Shown here: positions 6,381 to 14,877 of the stretch, in pieces | How positions within the stretch are numbered: the first letter of the stretch is position 1 | Layout: the number at the start of each line of letters is the position of its first letter | NCBI GenBank assembly: GCA_028694375.1 | Contig: JAQUTN010000005.1 | Location: 1 to 39,577 of the forward strand | DNA: 39,577 nt | DNA from: Bacteroidales bacterium | GTDB taxonomy: Bacteria; Bacteroidota; Bacteroidia; Bacteroidales; UBA1402 | Direction: 5' to 3' | Notes under the pieces: model-generated | What the model saw: the letters and a program-made list of their open reading frames with translations, nothing else | What the model was told of the DNA's origin: nothing | Database searches by the model: none | Made by a program: the position numbers and the translations under genes

Positions 6381-6605
6381 TTAATTGTTTGTTGGCTCGT
6401 CTTTGTCCTCCTTTTTTTTACCTGGGACAAAACTCAGTAATAAACCCCCAAAAACCAAGCCCCATAAGGTACTAAGGTAAGGCGAGGATTTTATGGGACA
6501 GCTGCCACTCCGGCAACCTACAAAATACCAATAAAGAAATCCGCCTAAGGCGCCGAAAACGGCTCCAAGGATTATCCAGCTATTTTTTGAAAGAAATTTT
6601 TTCAT
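6381..6605 (-). CDS. Small DUF6132-like membrane protein
   Basis: 74 residues from the ATG at 6605; an in-frame ATG at 6626 would add seven residues. Two hydrophobic segments (about 8-26 and 46-60) flank a loop reading VGCRSGSCPIKSSPY, followed by a charged Lys/Asp/Glu tail. The GCxSGSCPI-type loop between two helices is the pattern I associate with DUF6132 proteins, common in Bacteroidota and without an established function. The two Cys could bind a metal or form a redox pair, but that is speculation. It points toward pepP and ends 74 bases from its stop codon. Not obviously in an operon. Confidence 0.7.
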   Translation of the reverse strand: MKKFLSKNSWIILGAVFGALGGFLYWYFVGCRSGSCPIKSSPYLSTLWGLVFGGLLLSFVPGKKKEDKDEPTNN

Positions 6606-6676
6606 ATTCAATTTTTTTTTAAACATAATGCTTTATTTAAACATTTATTATTACTTTTCGGCTCGAAATATAAATT

Positions 6677-6690
6677 CCCCCCAAGGGGGG
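6677..6690. repeat. Perfect C6-AA-G6 dyad upstream of the lipoprotein promoter
   Basis: Six C, two A, six G in an otherwise AT-rich intergenic region, 23 bases upstream of a TACTTTTG box. The two-base centre is too short for a relaxed hairpin, so a protein site or chance are the likely readings. Direct observation; function unknown. Confidence 0.4.
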
Positions 6691-6713
6691 TGAGGCACAT
6701 GCTGAACACACTC

Positions 6714-6721
6714 TACTTTTG
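6714..6721 (+). promoter_or_regulatory. Promoter -7 box (TACTTTTG) of the beta-helix lipoprotein gene
   Basis: Exact match to TAnnTTTG, 34 bases upstream of the ATG at 6756, predicting a leader of about 30 nt. No clear TTG at the expected -33 distance. Confidence 0.55.
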
Positions 6722-6755
6722 AACAAAAATACAACTCTTTTAATACTTTTATCTC

Positions 6756-8471
6756 ATGAAAACACTTAATTCTAAATGGAGCACGATTGCCATTATGCTT
6801 TCTGCTATCTTTTTATTTTCATCTGCCTGCGATCAGATACCCGAAATTGATCCTAATTTAATCGGTGCCGAAAACAGCCTAATCAACACACCGACCACCT
6901 GGGAAGCCAACTCCGTCAAGACCATTGACTGTGCTCTGATTATTAACTCCATCCTGACCATCGAAGAGGGCTCCACCATTAAATTCACAGAAAACGGCAG
7001 CCTTTTGATAGGCTCTTCTACTAATGCCGCGCTGGTGGCTGATGGTTCAGCCGAAAAACCGATATTGTTTACAGGAGCCCTCAGTGACGACGAAGGCAGT
7101 TGGTATGGCATTAGTTTTGGGGCAAACAATTTATCGAATACTACTGTTCTAAAAAATTGCACTATCCAGGGAGCCGGCAAAAACAACCAGCCGGCAATTA
7201 CTGTGGACAACACCAACATTTCGATGGATTCCTGTACAGTCAGGTACTGTATGGCTGAAGGTATTGATCTCAAAAACGATGGTGGTTTTAGCAATTTTCA
7301 ACACAACCACATTGCCTATTGCGGCAGTTACCTTATGGCAGGAGAGCCCAACCAGTTATTGGGACTGAACAACAACAACAGCTTTGTCGAAAACCTGGGT
7401 AAAAACCTGCTCATTAAATCCGGAGCTGTTTCTACAACAGGCAGCCTGACAAAACTCAATGTTCCCTACATTGTTCTGGGAACCCTGGATGTTCTGGGTG
7501 CGGAACTCAGCATAGAACCCGGGGTAAGCCTGCTGTTCGAAAGCAATTCTGAGCTTAAGGTCGGTGAAGGGCAATACGCGGCATTAATTGCAGAGGGCAC
7601 CGAACAAGAGCCTATTGTTTTTGGTTCCTCTGCTCAAACTCCACAAGCCGGCGATTGGATGGGAATAGGATTTTATTCATCAAATTCGTCCACAAAATCT
7701 ATCATCAAACATGCTATTATAGAATATGCCGGCAATTCCAGTTATTACGACGGAGCTATTCAGAACAATAGCGGGTTTGCCATGGAAAACACTACCCTGC
7801 GCCACAGTAATACGAACGGTATACTTTGTTACCAGGATGGATATTTTACCTCTTTCAAAAACAACACAATAGGTAACTGCGCCAAAGATCCCATTGTTAT
7901 ATGGGCCGAAAATGCGCACAGCATAGGTCTAAACAACACTATTACTGCCTCTGCCGGGATGGGGGTTAAAATTGAAGGCTCCTATGTTACCAAAGATGTT
8001 AGGTGGATTAAACAAAGCGTACCTTATATCATCAACGGCGGAATTACCATAACCACAGAAACCGGGAATGCAAAACTGAGCATAGATCCCGGGACTAAGC
8101 TGGCTTTTCAAAGTGGCGTAAAACTTTACGTTGCAGATAACGGAGCCTTATCTGCTGCCGGTAAAGCCGATTCTATGATTGTTTTCACCTCCAATGCCAC
8201 TACACCATCGTCCGGAGATTGGGCAGGAATTGAATTTCTGGAAGGCACCCGGGCCGGAACTCTGCTGGATTATTGCGTAGTTGAATATGCCGGACATTAT
8301 GATCTTTTCAATATCGGAATAAGCACATCCAATGTCAGTATAACAAATTCAATTATCAGGCATTCCAGCAAATACGGCATTTATATTCACTGGAACGATC
8401 CGGCCTACAGTCCTACTATTCAAAACAACAACTACGCAGGGAACGAATTTGATGTTTACTATGAGCAATAA
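6756..8471 (+). CDS. Lipoprotein with three tandem parallel beta-helix units
   Basis: 571 residues. An N-terminal hydrophobic segment (11-22) ends in a lipobox LFSSAC with Cys25, so it should be lipidated and membrane anchored. The rest consists of three units starting near residues 50, 235 and 423. Each begins with a strand-rich segment containing (I/L)xPG or (I/E)EG-S/T, continues with an ALxAxG-plus-P(I)(L/V)F stretch, and contains a W-x-G-I-x-F signature (W116, W301, W489). They then run into short N/C-rich coils such as NCTIQGAG and HAIIEYAG, typical of right-handed parallel beta-helices of the pectate-lyase fold. No catalytic residues of a known polysaccharide lyase were recognised. A binding or surface adhesion role is as plausible as carbohydrate degradation. 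Its own promoter and a downstream hairpin suggest a monocistronic gene. Confidence 0.8.
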   Translation: MKTLNSKWSTIAIMLSAIFLFSSACDQIPEIDPNLIGAENSLINTPTTWEANSVKTIDCALIINSILTIEEGSTIKFTENGSLLIGSSTNAALVADGSAEKPILFTGALSDDEGSWYGISFGANNLSNTTVLKNCTIQGAGKNNQPAITVDNTNISMDSCTVRYCMAEGIDLKNDGGFSNFQHNHIAYCGSYLMAGEPNQLLGLNNNNSFVENLGKNLLIKSGAVSTTGSLTKLNVPYIVLGTLDVLGAELSIEPGVSLLFESNSELKVGEGQYAALIAEGTEQEPIVFGSSAQTPQAGDWMGIGFYSSNSSTKSIIKHAIIEYAGNSSYYDGAIQNNSGFAMENTTLRHSNTNGILCYQDGYFTSFKNNTIGNCAKDPIVIWAENAHSIGLNNTITASAGMGVKIEGSYVTKDVRWIKQSVPYIINGGITITTETGNAKLSIDPGTKLAFQSGVKLYVADNGALSAAGKADSMIVFTSNATTPSSGDWAGIEFLEGTRAGTLLDYCVVEYAGHYDLFNIGISTSNVSITNSIIRHSSKYGIYIHWNDPAYSPTIQNNNYAGNEFDVYYEQ

Positions 8472-8558
8472 ATTGTCTTTGAACTCTTCCTTAACCCTGA
8501 CAAAATCTAAGGAAGTATAGGTTTTCAATTATTGGCTAAACGATTGATAATGTATGGG

Positions 8559-8590
8559 AAGGAGGATGTTTCTTTTTAGACATCCTCTTT
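8559..8590 (+). terminator. Hairpin terminator after the beta-helix lipoprotein gene
   Basis: AAGGAGGATGT (8559-8569) pairs with ACATCCTCTTT (8580-8590), an 11-bp stem with one G-T wobble and a 10-base T-rich loop, followed by CTTATTAT. It lies 88 bases after the lipoprotein stop and directly before the next promoter box. The U-tract is imperfect, so efficiency is uncertain. Confidence 0.55.
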
Positions 8591-8595
8591 CTTAT

Positions 8596-8603
8596 TATCT
8601 TTG
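8596..8603 (+). promoter_or_regulatory. Promoter -7 box (TATCTTTG) only four bases from a start codon
   Basis: Exact TAnnTTTG match. Four bases (CCGC) separate it from the ATG at 8608. With the usual spacing the transcript would start on or next to the A of the ATG, giving a leaderless or near-leaderless mRNA. It also excludes the alternative upstream start at 8554. Confidence 0.6.
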
Positions 8604-8607
8604 CCGC

Positions 8608-9528
8608 ATGAAAACAAAAAACACCATTTGTCGTCTCTACGGCATACAACACCCTATCATACAAGGCGGTATGGCCTGGTGTAGCGGCTGGAAGCTGGCT
8701 TCTGCAGTCAGCAATCAGGGAGGACTGGGCCTGATTGGTGCAGGTTCCATGCACCCTGAAACGCTAAGGGAACACATTCAAAAATGTAAGAATGCCACCA
8801 ATCGTCCCTTTGGAGTGAATGTGCCGCTGATGTATCCACGGGTAGATGAAATCATGCACATTATCCGTGATGAAAAAGTCCGTATTGTATTTACTTCTGC
8901 GGGTAATCCCAAATTATGGACCGAATGGCTACATCAGCACAACATACTGGTCGCTCACGTAGTTTCAAGTTCTAAATTCAGTATTAAATGTCAGGAAGCC
9001 GGAGTCGATGTCGTAGTAGCCGAAGGATTCGAAGCCGGAGGTCACAACGGGAAGGAAGAAACCAGCACTTTTTGCCTGATACCACGGGTACGCGAAGTCT
9101 GTTCTTTGCCTTTGATTGCTGCCGGAGGTATCTCTTCGGGCAGCAGCTATCGTGCTGCCCTGGCATTGGGCGCAGAGGGTGTACAAATTGGGACCCGTTT
9201 TGCATTGTGCATGGAAAGTTCAGCCCATCCTGAATTCAAACATTATTGCAGGAACTTGCAGGAGGGAATGACCCAATTGATGTTGAAGAAACTTTCACCT
9301 ACCCGTTTGGCTCTTAACGATTTTGCAAAAAGGCTGGCTCAGGCCGAAGATAAGGGCGCAAGTGCAGAGGAGCTCAGCGATTTATTAGGCAAGGGACGAG
9401 CCAAAAAAGGAATCTTTGAAGGAGATTTAAAGGAAGGCGCCCTGGAAATTGGACAATGCGCCGGTAGCGTACGCAAAGAAGAATCTGTGCAGGACATTTT
9501 TGAGGATATCCTGAGCAACAAGGCCTAA
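8608..9528 (+). CDS. FMN-dependent enoyl-ACP reductase (FabK) / nitronate monooxygenase family protein
   Basis: 306 residues. TIM-barrel flavoprotein of the PF03060 type: N-terminal PIIQGGMAW (16-24), AVSNQGGLGLIGAG (33-46), FGVNVPLM (68-75), AEGFEAGGHNG (138-148) with His146, AAGGIS (171-176) and GVQIGTRF (191-198), the phosphate-binding end of the barrel. The combination of PI(I/F)QGGMAW, GGLG(I/L)IG(A/G)G and EAGGHxG is what I recall of streptococcal FabK, so trans-2-enoyl-ACP reduction in fatty-acid synthesis is the favoured role. Genome annotation usually labels such proteins nitronate monooxygenase and the two cannot be separated with certainty here. A C-terminal extension (about 225-306) ends in GALEIGQCAG. 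The ATG at 8608 is set by the promoter box just upstream. Confidence 0.82.
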   Translation: MKTKNTICRLYGIQHPIIQGGMAWCSGWKLASAVSNQGGLGLIGAGSMHPETLREHIQKCKNATNRPFGVNVPLMYPRVDEIMHIIRDEKVRIVFTSAGNPKLWTEWLHQHNILVAHVVSSSKFSIKCQEAGVDVVVAEGFEAGGHNGKEETSTFCLIPRVREVCSLPLIAAGGISSGSSYRAALALGAEGVQIGTRFALCMESSAHPEFKHYCRNLQEGMTQLMLKKLSPTRLALNDFAKRLAQAEDKGASAEELSDLLGKGRAKKGIFEGDLKEGALEIGQCAGSVRKEESVQDIFEDILSNKA

Positions 9529-10269: not shown

Positions 10270-12606
10270 CTAGAAAGGATAGCCAATGGCCAAGTGTAGA
10301 GCAAAGTCGTTCCACTGATCGATGTGCTTAATCCTCCATCGATCTTCGGCACTAAGTCCCGAAGGGTCAAATACTTTCATGCCCGCATCAACACGAACCA
10401 AAAAGAAATTAAAATCAAAACGCAAACCCAGGCCTGCAGAACAAGCCAATTGCTTATAAAACTCATCGAATTGGAATTGGCCACCCGGCTGATTGTCGTA
10501 ATTGCGCAAGGTCCATATATTTCCAACATCAACAAACAAGCCGCCCTCGAGCACCCAAAATAATTTACTGCGCAACTCCGCATTGATATCCAGCTTAAGG
10601 TCTCCCGATTGATTCATGAAATCGATAGTACTAAGACTGCTTTTATATGATCCCGGCCCCAATGTTCTGACAGACCAGCCACGTACAGAGTTGGCTCCAC
10701 CCGAAAAATAACGTTTTTCAAATGGCAATATTTTTGAATTACCATAGGGATAAGCTACGCCCATACCAACACGATAAGCAAAACGATTGCGAGGATTCAG
10801 AACAACACTTCTTGTATATTCAAATTCTCCTTTTACATATTGCGAAAAAGGGATATTCCCTATGGTATAGGCCTGATTTCCTTCCTTTTCTGCTCCCAGT
10901 AAGGAATAAGCCAGGCTTAAAATATTACCTGCTGATTCTACATTGGCACGTATGGTAAAAAAAGTTCGGTTGGATACTCCAAAAGGAACACTGGAATAAA
11001 GAATTCCGTATTGAGTACGCAAAATAAAATGATCTTCGTAACTGTATTTTAAGTACGAATTATCGGTGAGATAATTCGCCTTAAAAGCAGAGTCCACCCG
11101 AGGCATATAGACATATGCCAGATCGAGCAAATTTAAATTCTGACGCAAACGCTGCTTTCTCCAGGTATACTCCACGGTACCGGCAGCCATTGTTCGTAAA
11201 AATTCCGGACGTGACAGGTTATCGTAACTGATTTTGAAATTAGTATTGGCGTCCACTCCCTTTTTGAATTCTCGGGATAAAAAAGGAATCTTAAAATCGG
11301 GAAACTGCAAACCAACCTCACCCCCAAACTCTGCATAATCGTTTAGGAATGAACTTGAGAGAGCCTCATAGGCCCCCCGTAAACTGGTACTGAATGTTTC
11401 TCCGCCTCTGAGCAAATTAAGATGCGAATAGGTCAATGTTCCGGCAACACCCAGATCGCCCGCTGTATTGGTGCCCTCTACATCCATGGAAATAATGTTG
11501 TTTTTCCCGGGGGTCAATACCAAATAACAATCCAGCTTTGCTTCCTTTCCGAAAATTGAATCGCTGGTGGCTATTTCCTCGAAACGAATATTGACATATT
11601 TCATATTCTGCATGGAGTTGAAGCGGGCATAGGTTCTGTTCACAGTTCTGGCATCGTAATAATCGCCGGGAGTAATCATACAATTATCTGCCAACACTTT
11701 TGGTTTAATAAAGGGTTTATCCCTATAAACCACGGCATAATTTTCGTAGGGTATGGAATCGTAATCCGATAGCGCCACAAAAGGGTTGGCAGCTCCCTGA
11801 AGACCCACATTTCGCAGATAAACAGAACTGGGCACATCCAACATAAAAAACACGTTGCGAATTCGAAATTGTTTGTGTGGTCCGTATTGAGAAATGCCCT
11901 CGCGGTTGCGCTGTAAATAAGGCTGAATGATCAGCCGGAGATCGACAAGATTCTTATTGAGGGTGCTATCTGCCTCAAAACTGAAATGATCTTTATTGAC
12001 AGCATAGTAACCATAGTTTCTGGCCCAGGATACCAGTCTGGAACGTTCTTCGTTGAGCAGGTTGGTGTCGAATTTGTCTCCTGTTCGCACAGGGGACAAA
12101 GACAAAGCGTCGTAAATAAGCATATGAAAAGGGTCCTGCGGATTTATCTCGGCAGTATAACTATTGATTCGATACGCCTGATTGGGACTGATGCTGTATA
12201 TTGTTCTAATTTTCCGGCCTTTGCTCACTACCCGGGTTTCCACGTCTGAATCAAAATATCCCTTGCTGAATAAATACCTCTCCATAGCCATGGCAGAGCG
12301 CTGAGTGAGCAATTCTTCATAAACCACCGGGGCTTCTCCTATTTTTCTAAGGCTGCGATTGATCCATTTGCTGGTATCCTGCCCTGATATGTTGTAAAGT
12401 CCCAGATTTATTCTGAATAAACCCCAGAAACGAGAATTCGGTTGCTGTCGCAGGTAATTTTTTAGCTCTTTTTTCGAAATTTCCTCGTCTTTAAGCTCTA
12501 TACTAGTAGCGGTTAGCAACTGTTTGTCTTCCGGCACATATTTGAGAGTATGGCAGGAGACAAACAAGAGAGAAACCAGCACATAAAAGAGTTTTTTTAC
12601 TCGCAT
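10270..12606 (-). CDS. tamL: TamL-type BamA/TamA-family outer-membrane lipoprotein
   Basis: 778 residues. The signal sequence ends in lipobox LLFVSC with Cys18, followed by HTLKYVPEDKQLL, the N-terminal signature of the Bacteroidota lipoprotein form of the Omp85 family. POTRA-like segments follow (about 35-330), then a C-terminal 16-strand barrel region (about 390-778). It contains a (V/I)RG motif (SVRGWSVRTLGPGSY) typical of the Omp85 substrate-guiding loop, and ends in an aromatic residue (IGYPF). The presumed role is insertion or translocation of outer-membrane or surface proteins with TamB. No tamB lies in the window. It is divergent from a SpoU methyltransferase gene, a neighbour pair I recall from Bacteroides. 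The start is supported by the promoter at 12627-12658. Confidence 0.87.
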   Translation of the reverse strand: MRVKKLFYVLVSLLFVSCHTLKYVPEDKQLLTATSIELKDEEISKKELKNYLRQQPNSRFWGLFRINLGLYNISGQDTSKWINRSLRKIGEAPVVYEELLTQRSAMAMERYLFSKGYFDSDVETRVVSKGRKIRTIYSISPNQAYRINSYTAEINPQDPFHMLIYDALSLSPVRTGDKFDTNLLNEERSRLVSWARNYGYYAVNKDHFSFEADSTLNKNLVDLRLIIQPYLQRNREGISQYGPHKQFRIRNVFFMLDVPSSVYLRNVGLQGAANPFVALSDYDSIPYENYAVVYRDKPFIKPKVLADNCMITPGDYYDARTVNRTYARFNSMQNMKYVNIRFEEIATSDSIFGKEAKLDCYLVLTPGKNNIISMDVEGTNTAGDLGVAGTLTYSHLNLLRGGETFSTSLRGAYEALSSSFLNDYAEFGGEVGLQFPDFKIPFLSREFKKGVDANTNFKISYDNLSRPEFLRTMAAGTVEYTWRKQRLRQNLNLLDLAYVYMPRVDSAFKANYLTDNSYLKYSYEDHFILRTQYGILYSSVPFGVSNRTFFTIRANVESAGNILSLAYSLLGAEKEGNQAYTIGNIPFSQYVKGEFEYTRSVVLNPRNRFAYRVGMGVAYPYGNSKILPFEKRYFSGGANSVRGWSVRTLGPGSYKSSLSTIDFMNQSGDLKLDINAELRSKLFWVLEGGLFVDVGNIWTLRNYDNQPGGQFQFDEFYKQLACSAGLGLRFDFNFFLVRVDAGMKVFDPSGLSAEDRWRIKHIDQWNDFALHLAIGYPF

Positions 12607-14223: not shown

Positions 14224-14877
14224 TCAGCTTGGGAGAGGAGAACCTGCCTTGTTTTTTTTGTGTTTTTTTCCGGTATCCTCGGCCAGATGAGAGCGATAAA
14301 AGATCAACAGTATCAGGATGCCGGTAGTAATAGAGGTATCAGCAATATTGAATACCGGTCTGAAAAACAAAAAATCACGGCCGCCCCAAATAGGTAGCCA
14401 ATTGGGCAAAGTCGTGTCAATCACAGGGAAAAACAACATATCGACCACTTTCCCGTAAAAGACCGGTGCATAACCACCGTCCTGAGGGAAAAATCCGGCT
14501 ACCTGTCCATAACTGTGATCAAAGATCAAACCATAAAACACACAATCGATCACATTGCCTAGGGCACCGGCAATAATAAGTGCAATACTCAAAATATAGC
14601 CTGTAGGGAATTGCTTTTTCAGGCTAATATGCACCAAATACCAAATCAACAAGCCGGCAGCAATCAGTCTGAACAAGGTCAGAAATATCTTGTCAAAAAA
14701 TTCCCAGCCAAAAGCCATGCCGTTGTTTTCGGTAAAATATATATAAAACCAATCAGTTACACGAATGCTTTCGTGCAACTGGAAATGCGTTTTAATGTAT
14801 ATCTTAACCGCTTGATCTACAATCAGAATGATCGCAATTAGTATAAACGCTTTCCATACTTTGGAAAGTTTTGCCAT
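14224..14877 (-). CDS. lspA: Lipoprotein signal peptidase II
   Basis: 217 residues with four hydrophobic segments (about 8-25, 65-85, 94-112 and 183-195). The two catalytic aspartates are visible: Asp111 in GALGNVIDCVFYG and Asp180 in VFNIADTSI. NNGMAFGW (51-58) is the conserved first motif. The protein cleaves prolipoproteins before the lipidated Cys in the inner membrane. It is longer than the E. coli enzyme (164 aa), with an insert at about 118-172 common in this phylum and a Lys-rich C-terminus. It sits between the DksA-like gene (2-base gap) and the DUF4296 gene. Two lipoproteins that need it lie within 3 kb. Confidence 0.96.
   Translation of the reverse strand: MAKLSKVWKAFILIAIILIVDQAVKIYIKTHFQLHESIRVTDWFYIYFTENNGMAFGWEFFDKIFLTLFRLIAAGLLIWYLVHISLKKQFPTGYILSIALIIAGALGNVIDCVFYGLIFDHSYGQVAGFFPQDGGYAPVFYGKVVDMLFFPVIDTTLPNWLPIWGGRDFLFFRPVFNIADTSITTGILILLIFYRSHLAEDTGKKHKKNKAGSPLPS

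Follow-up and report, generated by a model that had tools for sequence, protein, structure and literature searches.

The open reading frame at positions 6756–8471 on the forward strand of the window, i.e., the whole stretch of 39,577 nucleotides of Bacteroidales DNA analysed here, encodes a putative lipoprotein of 571 amino acids (aa) consisting of three related units, for which a beta-helix fold is well indicated, though not proved. The protein most likely acts, with a chance that we put at nearly even, as an outer-membrane lipoprotein whose beta-helix units bind glycans or other ligands without cleaving them. This non-catalytic binding is our leading reading because a lyase profile was not matched and genes for glycan enzymes were not found among the neighbours scanned.

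Unit structure and lipoprotein start

In off-diagonal local alignments of the protein with itself, scores of 205 were obtained for units 1 and 2 (47 identities in 158 columns), 196 for units 2 and 3 (50 in 144) and 123 for units 1 and 3 (38 in 127). With shuffle maxima for these pairs of 68, 66 and 77 and means of about 33–35, none of 1000 shuffles scored as high as any of the three observed values. The similarity among the three segments is significant and far above the shuffles, confirming the internal duplication that had been proposed in the sequence-only reading from the regular recurrence of motifs. As no tandem repeat was found at the DNA level, this duplication is old.

The unit of about 187 residues is laid out as a lead-in strand, I-x-PG, A-L-x-A-x-G, W-x-G-I-x-F and Y-A-G, and is shortened when last. 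The W-x-G-I-x-F signatures are correctly placed in the earlier reading (Table 1), with spacings of 185 and 188 residues, and the PG/EG segments are present in all three units (IEEG at 69, IEPG at 253 and IDPG at 443), the same pattern also matching IAEG at 278 within the A-L-A-G block of unit 2. Exact copies of AAL-A-G, however, are found only at residues 91 and 275, the third copy being GALSAAG. Likewise, the description as three tandem units stands as far as three related segments are present, whereas only units 1 and 2 have the full length of about 187 residues; unit 3 is shortened, ending at position 129 of a unit profile of 170 positions. As this profile was built from the window protein and its homologues L003 and L005, its matches in the window protein are by construction.

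Table 1. Positions of the gene, its parts and flanking elements in the window.
Feature	Positions	Strand	Evidence
Three-unit beta-helix lipoprotein gene, 571 aa	6756..8471	+	ORF, PF13229 match, dN/dS versus L003
Signal peptide and lipobox SSA-C, Cys25, residues 1–25 (predicted)	6756..6830	+	sequence pattern
Linker and N-terminal lead-in, residues 26–60	6831..6935	+	sequence
Unit 1, residues 61–228, WYGISF at 116	6936..7439	+	self-alignment, unit profile (by construction), model
Unit 2, residues 229–416, WMGIGF at 301	7440..8003	+	self-alignment, unit profile (by construction)
Unit 3, residues 417–571, WAGIEF at 489	8004..8468	+	self-alignment, unit profile (by construction)
Candidate Bacteroidota-type −7 element TACTTTTG (TAnnTTTG)	6714..6721	+	motif match
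Terminator-like hairpin after the gene	8554..8595	+	−22.8 kcal/mol, z −5.87, 0/200 shuffles as good

In line with the claimed lipoprotein nature, a pattern match places a lipobox, SSA-C with Cys25, at residues 22–25 after a hydrophobic stretch; the Ser at −3 departs from what we take to be the strict consensus, and the homologue from genome G008 has FAG-C. Sec export and subsequent lipidation at Cys25 would be expected, after which the lipidated protein would be moved to the outer membrane as its most likely location. In the export signal published for surface lipoproteins of Bacteroidota, acidic residues come after a polar or basic one close to the cysteine (PMC5080379). The mature start CDQIPEID of the window protein and L003 does not contain an acidic pair at +2 to +6, whereas such a pair is present in 12 of 20 sequences, all 12 belonging to the 18 other proteins (duplicates as well as L011, L021, L025 and L064, for which no lipobox was found, not being counted). 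Judged by these N-termini, surface exposure is plausible for many relatives and, because of the lacking acidic pair, uncertain for the window protein.

Family profiles, predicted fold and conserved residues

The beta-helix assignment is borne out by the profile search, in which the only Pfam family above its cut-off for the 571-aa protein is Beta_helix (PF13229, right handed beta helix region), matching three stretches at an E-value of 1.9e-12 and 47.6 bits (curated gathering cut-off 25.9). In NCBIfam, the best match listed was no better than E 0.1. This general Pfam profile of 158 positions, however, misses the unit of about 187 residues with its PG, A-L-A-G and W-G-I-F blocks, and the unit may be worth a profile of its own. 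Neither polysaccharide lyase (PL) or GH28 profiles nor the type IX C-terminal sorting domain (PF18962, TIGR04183) were listed up to E 1 in Pfam and NCBIfam; family profiles thus speak against a lyase identity.

A piece of 258 aa (residues 43–300, covering unit 1 as well as the beginning of unit 2) was modelled with AlphaFold2 from an alignment of the corresponding pieces of the window protein itself and its orthologue L003. The resulting model has strands only (mean pLDDT 70.8, pTM 0.64), with block-mean pLDDT values of 60–92 across the first 120 residues and values below 50 at residues 131–137, 148–163 and 172–175 of the piece, so that a single continuous helix and three separate helices are indistinguishable in it. 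A full-length model from two sequences was poor (mean pLDDT 51.2) and was used for no structural claim. In a Foldseek search with the 258-aa model, the best match had an E-value of 0.034, so that none reached 0.001. Upon structural realignment of 446 Foldseek chains, 129 reached a Z score of at least 8, the best neighbour having a Z of 11.0 at an rmsd of 6.9 over 230 residues, with rmsd values being large overall. The best 50 of these 446 chains are dominated by tailspikes, pertactin, pectin methylesterases, pectate lyases and AlgG, all of which we take to be beta-helix proteins. The modelled piece, being all-strand and having such neighbours, agrees with the fold originally read from the sequence. 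Among solved structures, the sequence search with the protein gave 0 matches up to E 10, and the four matches of the unit profile up to E 1, with an alpha-1,3-glucanase as the best at E 0.11, were taken as chance.

Pertactin, EtpA, Awp1 and SRRP among the structural neighbours would be in line with a putative adhesin attaching to host, particle or neighbour cells. This fold, however, is common to enzymes too and hence no pointer to adhesion, an adhesin profile was not matched in Pfam and NCBIfam, and the surface-exposure signal is weak in the window protein, so that we consider an adhesin quite improbable.

Across 80 unit rows, from which duplicates of one gene (L004, L033, L034, L046, L048, L060, L061, L064, L065 and L067) were removed, the columns conserved at 40% or more are mostly Gly, aliphatic, aromatic or Asn/Ser/Thr, as expected for a scaffold. 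The charged exceptions are Glu residues at profile columns 13 (50%) and 82 (48%), which are not accounted for by a purely structural reading. These two positions, conserved at about 50%, would fit a putative polysaccharide lyase or hydrolase attached to the surface, in which at least one unit cuts the polymer by means of an unusual active site while the other units bind it. Many structural neighbours are indeed PL1, PL3, PL6, GH28 and epimerase enzymes, and catalysis is also hinted at by a PF13229 cluster model having a lacto-N-biosidase as top DALI hit; this model is reported to resemble carbohydrate-binding pectate lyase adhesive domains, and potential catalytic functions are suggested (PMC9210967). 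However, the likeness of the modelled piece to PL6 alginate lyases, PL3 and PL1 pectate lyases, GH28 and the AlgG epimerase appears to be that of the general beta-helix fold, at about 8–14% identity in the structural alignments listed and with none of the PL or GH28 family profiles listed up to E 1. Moreover, no charged residue exceeds about 50% across the 80 unit rows and a glycan-enzyme profile was not found among the neighbours scanned, leaving an enzyme distinctly unlikely.

Relatives, selection and history of the unit

Compared with the 86% identical orthologue L003, the gene shows a dN of 0.081 and a dS of 0.811 (dN/dS about 0.1) and is under purifying selection; the corresponding dN/dS values of the neighbours are similar, with 0.083/1.03 (M24), 0.083/1.03 (FabK) and 0.065/1.22 (Omp85). 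At residues 26–60, both dN and dS are 0. This segment lies within a block at 6570–7230 that extends over the intergenic region into the 5′ part of the gene and is more like genome G001 (locus L060) than the flanking sequence is. Here, identity in 60-base windows is mostly 0.90–1.00, as against mostly 0.7–0.85 outside, with dips to 0.82–0.85 in the signal peptide and 0.85–0.88 at 7020–7109, and exact runs of 181 bases (6808–6988) and 108 bases (6636–6743) are shared. This block is most simply read as a short tract of recent recombination, while promoter constraint could be a cause for its intergenic part only.

In a set of 98 relatives plus the window's own genome, 47 of the 99 matched the protein; among 198 genomes sampled across the phylum, again with the window's own, 119 matched the unit alignment (A4). 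On these matches, the beta-helix module is widespread in Bacteroidota. Full-length matches are those in G001 (86%; this is the L003 stretch, from a Bacteroidales MAG) and G008 (49%), the only full-length homologues among 12 other members of the genus and family (G001–G012), and this paucity of close homologues weighs against the glycan-binding reading. G002, a genome of the same genus (99% complete) without a protein match, was considered as an empty site and rejected, as its contigs break at the locus: contig C10 runs 72 bases past the M24 orthologue, and the Omp85 orthologue starts 760 bases into C3. The genes for the beta-helix protein and FabK would thus lie in the unassembled part between the contigs, which makes their absence uninformative. 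In the viral collection, 25 stretches matched a pattern and none was confirmed, a weak negative from a single scan.

Within the window's own genome, the only other match of the protein search is L064 (7100–11605 of G000:C182), a frame of 1502 aa in which lamin-tail, CotH and Beta_helix domains are accompanied by a type IX sorting tail scoring below the cut-offs (22.7 versus 23 in NCBIfam, 23.1 versus 27 in Pfam).

With the unit profile, one to seven matched pieces per open frame were found in relatives, and many proteins with the same beta-helix unit have lipoprotein-like starts. In all of the 16 proteins with two or three units that were checked, among them the window protein and with duplicates removed, the last unit stops at position 117–136 of the 170 profile positions, while the 26 units preceding a last one end at 157–170. 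Judged from these alignments, the last unit is regularly shortened, as though it lacked the part that would join it to a next unit.

The same kind of protein, carrying the window's unit in two or three copies, is represented in other Bacteroidales and Bacteroidota by, for example, L006, L009, L015, L017, L066 and L092–L096. The last unit is shortened in the 16 checked (L092–L096 being outside that set), and the starts of those viewed are lipoprotein-like, for L092–L096 judged by eye since the pattern caught only one of the five. Unlike the window protein, several of these proteins have a clear acidic export signal, some appear to have multiplied their units independently, and in nine of the 16 (L006, L009, L011, L012, L015, L016, L017, L023 and L066) the first unit starts near residue 157–180 of the open frame, about 100 residues later. 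The window's unit is also present in very long Bacteroidales beta-helix proteins (L013, L014, L018 and L019, frames of 1,729–1,938 aa), with successive W motifs 187–192 residues apart in parts of L013, L018 and L019; these proteins differ in having more units and other spacings, for example, 396 in L014.

A tree of 42 units from the 16 proteins, in which 16 of 39 inner branches are drawn open, was calculated without L002, L013, L014, L018, L019, L021, L022 and L024–L032 (unit number too low or too high, or open ends). Units 1, 2 and 3 of the window protein, L003 and L005 each form a clade of their own (support 100/99, 98/94 and 95/92). Since the units of these three proteins cluster by position, the triplication predates the split of the two genera and, by this tree, is common to the window's genus and another genus of the family. 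Elsewhere, units cluster by protein, as seen for the three of L020 and the first two of L009; either independent duplication or sequence homogenisation is indicated by this pattern.

The varying number of units in relatives would be expected if length matters, as for a putative structural spacer or scaffold, i.e., a ligand-free rod that spaces an envelope partner or lends stiffness to the envelope, and the mostly structural nature of the conserved unit residues is likewise in its favour. However, the three closest homologues all have three units, each with its own sequence type, which suggests unit-specific roles and makes a spacer, our second reading, rather unlikely. In the favoured case of ligand binding without cleavage, the three in-line beta-helix units would form a rod or string, the exposed faces and loops of which would bind the ligand, the likeliest candidate being a glycan or another polymer of the surface. 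As the units within the window protein have diverged to 26–33% identity, these would probably be different faces rather than three equal sites.

Gene neighbourhood and significance of the unit

The earlier view of a monocistronic gene is supported, as the nearest upstream open reading frame (DUF6132-like, 6381–6626) is on the opposite strand and a terminator-like hairpin, from a scan yielding four sites versus 2.4 expected by shuffling, precedes the next gene. The match to TAnnTTTG, presumably the Bacteroidota-type −7 motif, is found 34 bases before the start codon. As this motif occurs 44 times in the 79,154 positions of both window strands, it is weak evidence and the element a candidate only. 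The stretch separating the divergent DUF6132-like gene from the beta-helix gene contains an inverted repeat, C6-AA-G6 at 6677–6690, which belongs to the run of 108 bases identical in G001. In the window, nothing except a tRNA was found with Rfam at gathering scores, matches upstream of the gene being weak and all far below these scores.

The listed start of the following FabK/NMO-like gene at 8554 falls in the hairpin. With TATCTTTG at 8596, 4 bases before an ATG at 8608, and with the best alignments of relatives outside the genus beginning at residues 19–23, the sequence suggests that this ATG is the real start, against which stands the G001 alignment beginning at residue 8.

By their Pfam matches, the neighbours encode an M24 peptidase, the FabK/NMO-like protein and an Omp85 protein. 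SusC/SusD profiles were not listed for the 16 window proteins scanned and glycan-enzyme profiles were not found among the neighbours scanned. As far as these profiles tell, the neighbour genes do not form a glycan-use locus, which weighs against the glycan-binding reading. The N-terminus of the Omp85 protein (10270–12606), LLFVSC, resembles a lipoprotein start, as is reported for TamL of Bacteroidota (PMC12045153), and a signal peptidase II gene is located nearby at 14224–14877.

The three-unit relatives L101 (G092:C8) and L102 (G078:C366), and also L065 and L067, adjoin genes for a TPR histidine kinase and a LytTR response regulator, arranged in tandem in one relative and divergently in the other. 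In fetched flanks, LytTR was found at 5 of 40 loci versus 0.98 expected (P 0.003) and at 4 of 12 three-unit loci versus 0.34 expected (P 0.0004), with loci hand-picked from the genome search matches, shorter open frames being preferred, and with observed and expected counts coming from different detectors (phmmer, PF04397). Without the two loci that had raised the idea, hand arithmetic gives 3 of 38 versus about 0.92 (P about 0.07) and, for three-unit loci, 2 of 10 versus about 0.28 (P about 0.03). The enrichment near beta-helix loci is suggestive and not established; in the window, LytTR was not found.

Taking unit and neighbourhood together, the unit of about 187 residues might be an undescribed module from which surface lipoproteins of Bacteroidota are built. 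It would have been multiplied in many lineages independently of one another, giving rods of defined length whose ligand faces differ from unit to unit, and in some lineages it would be under the control of the adjacent TPR histidine kinase and LytTR regulator. We regard this proposal as unlikely. A description of the protein or the unit was not found among the literature matches listed, which is not evidence of an undescribed unit.

The window protein belongs to a known, abundant class of Bacteroidota envelope proteins. While the single gene by itself changes little, an isolated observation is now placed in this large class, for which an assigned function did not emerge from the searches. Proof that the unit binds a defined ligand would allow many hypothetical proteins to be better annotated.
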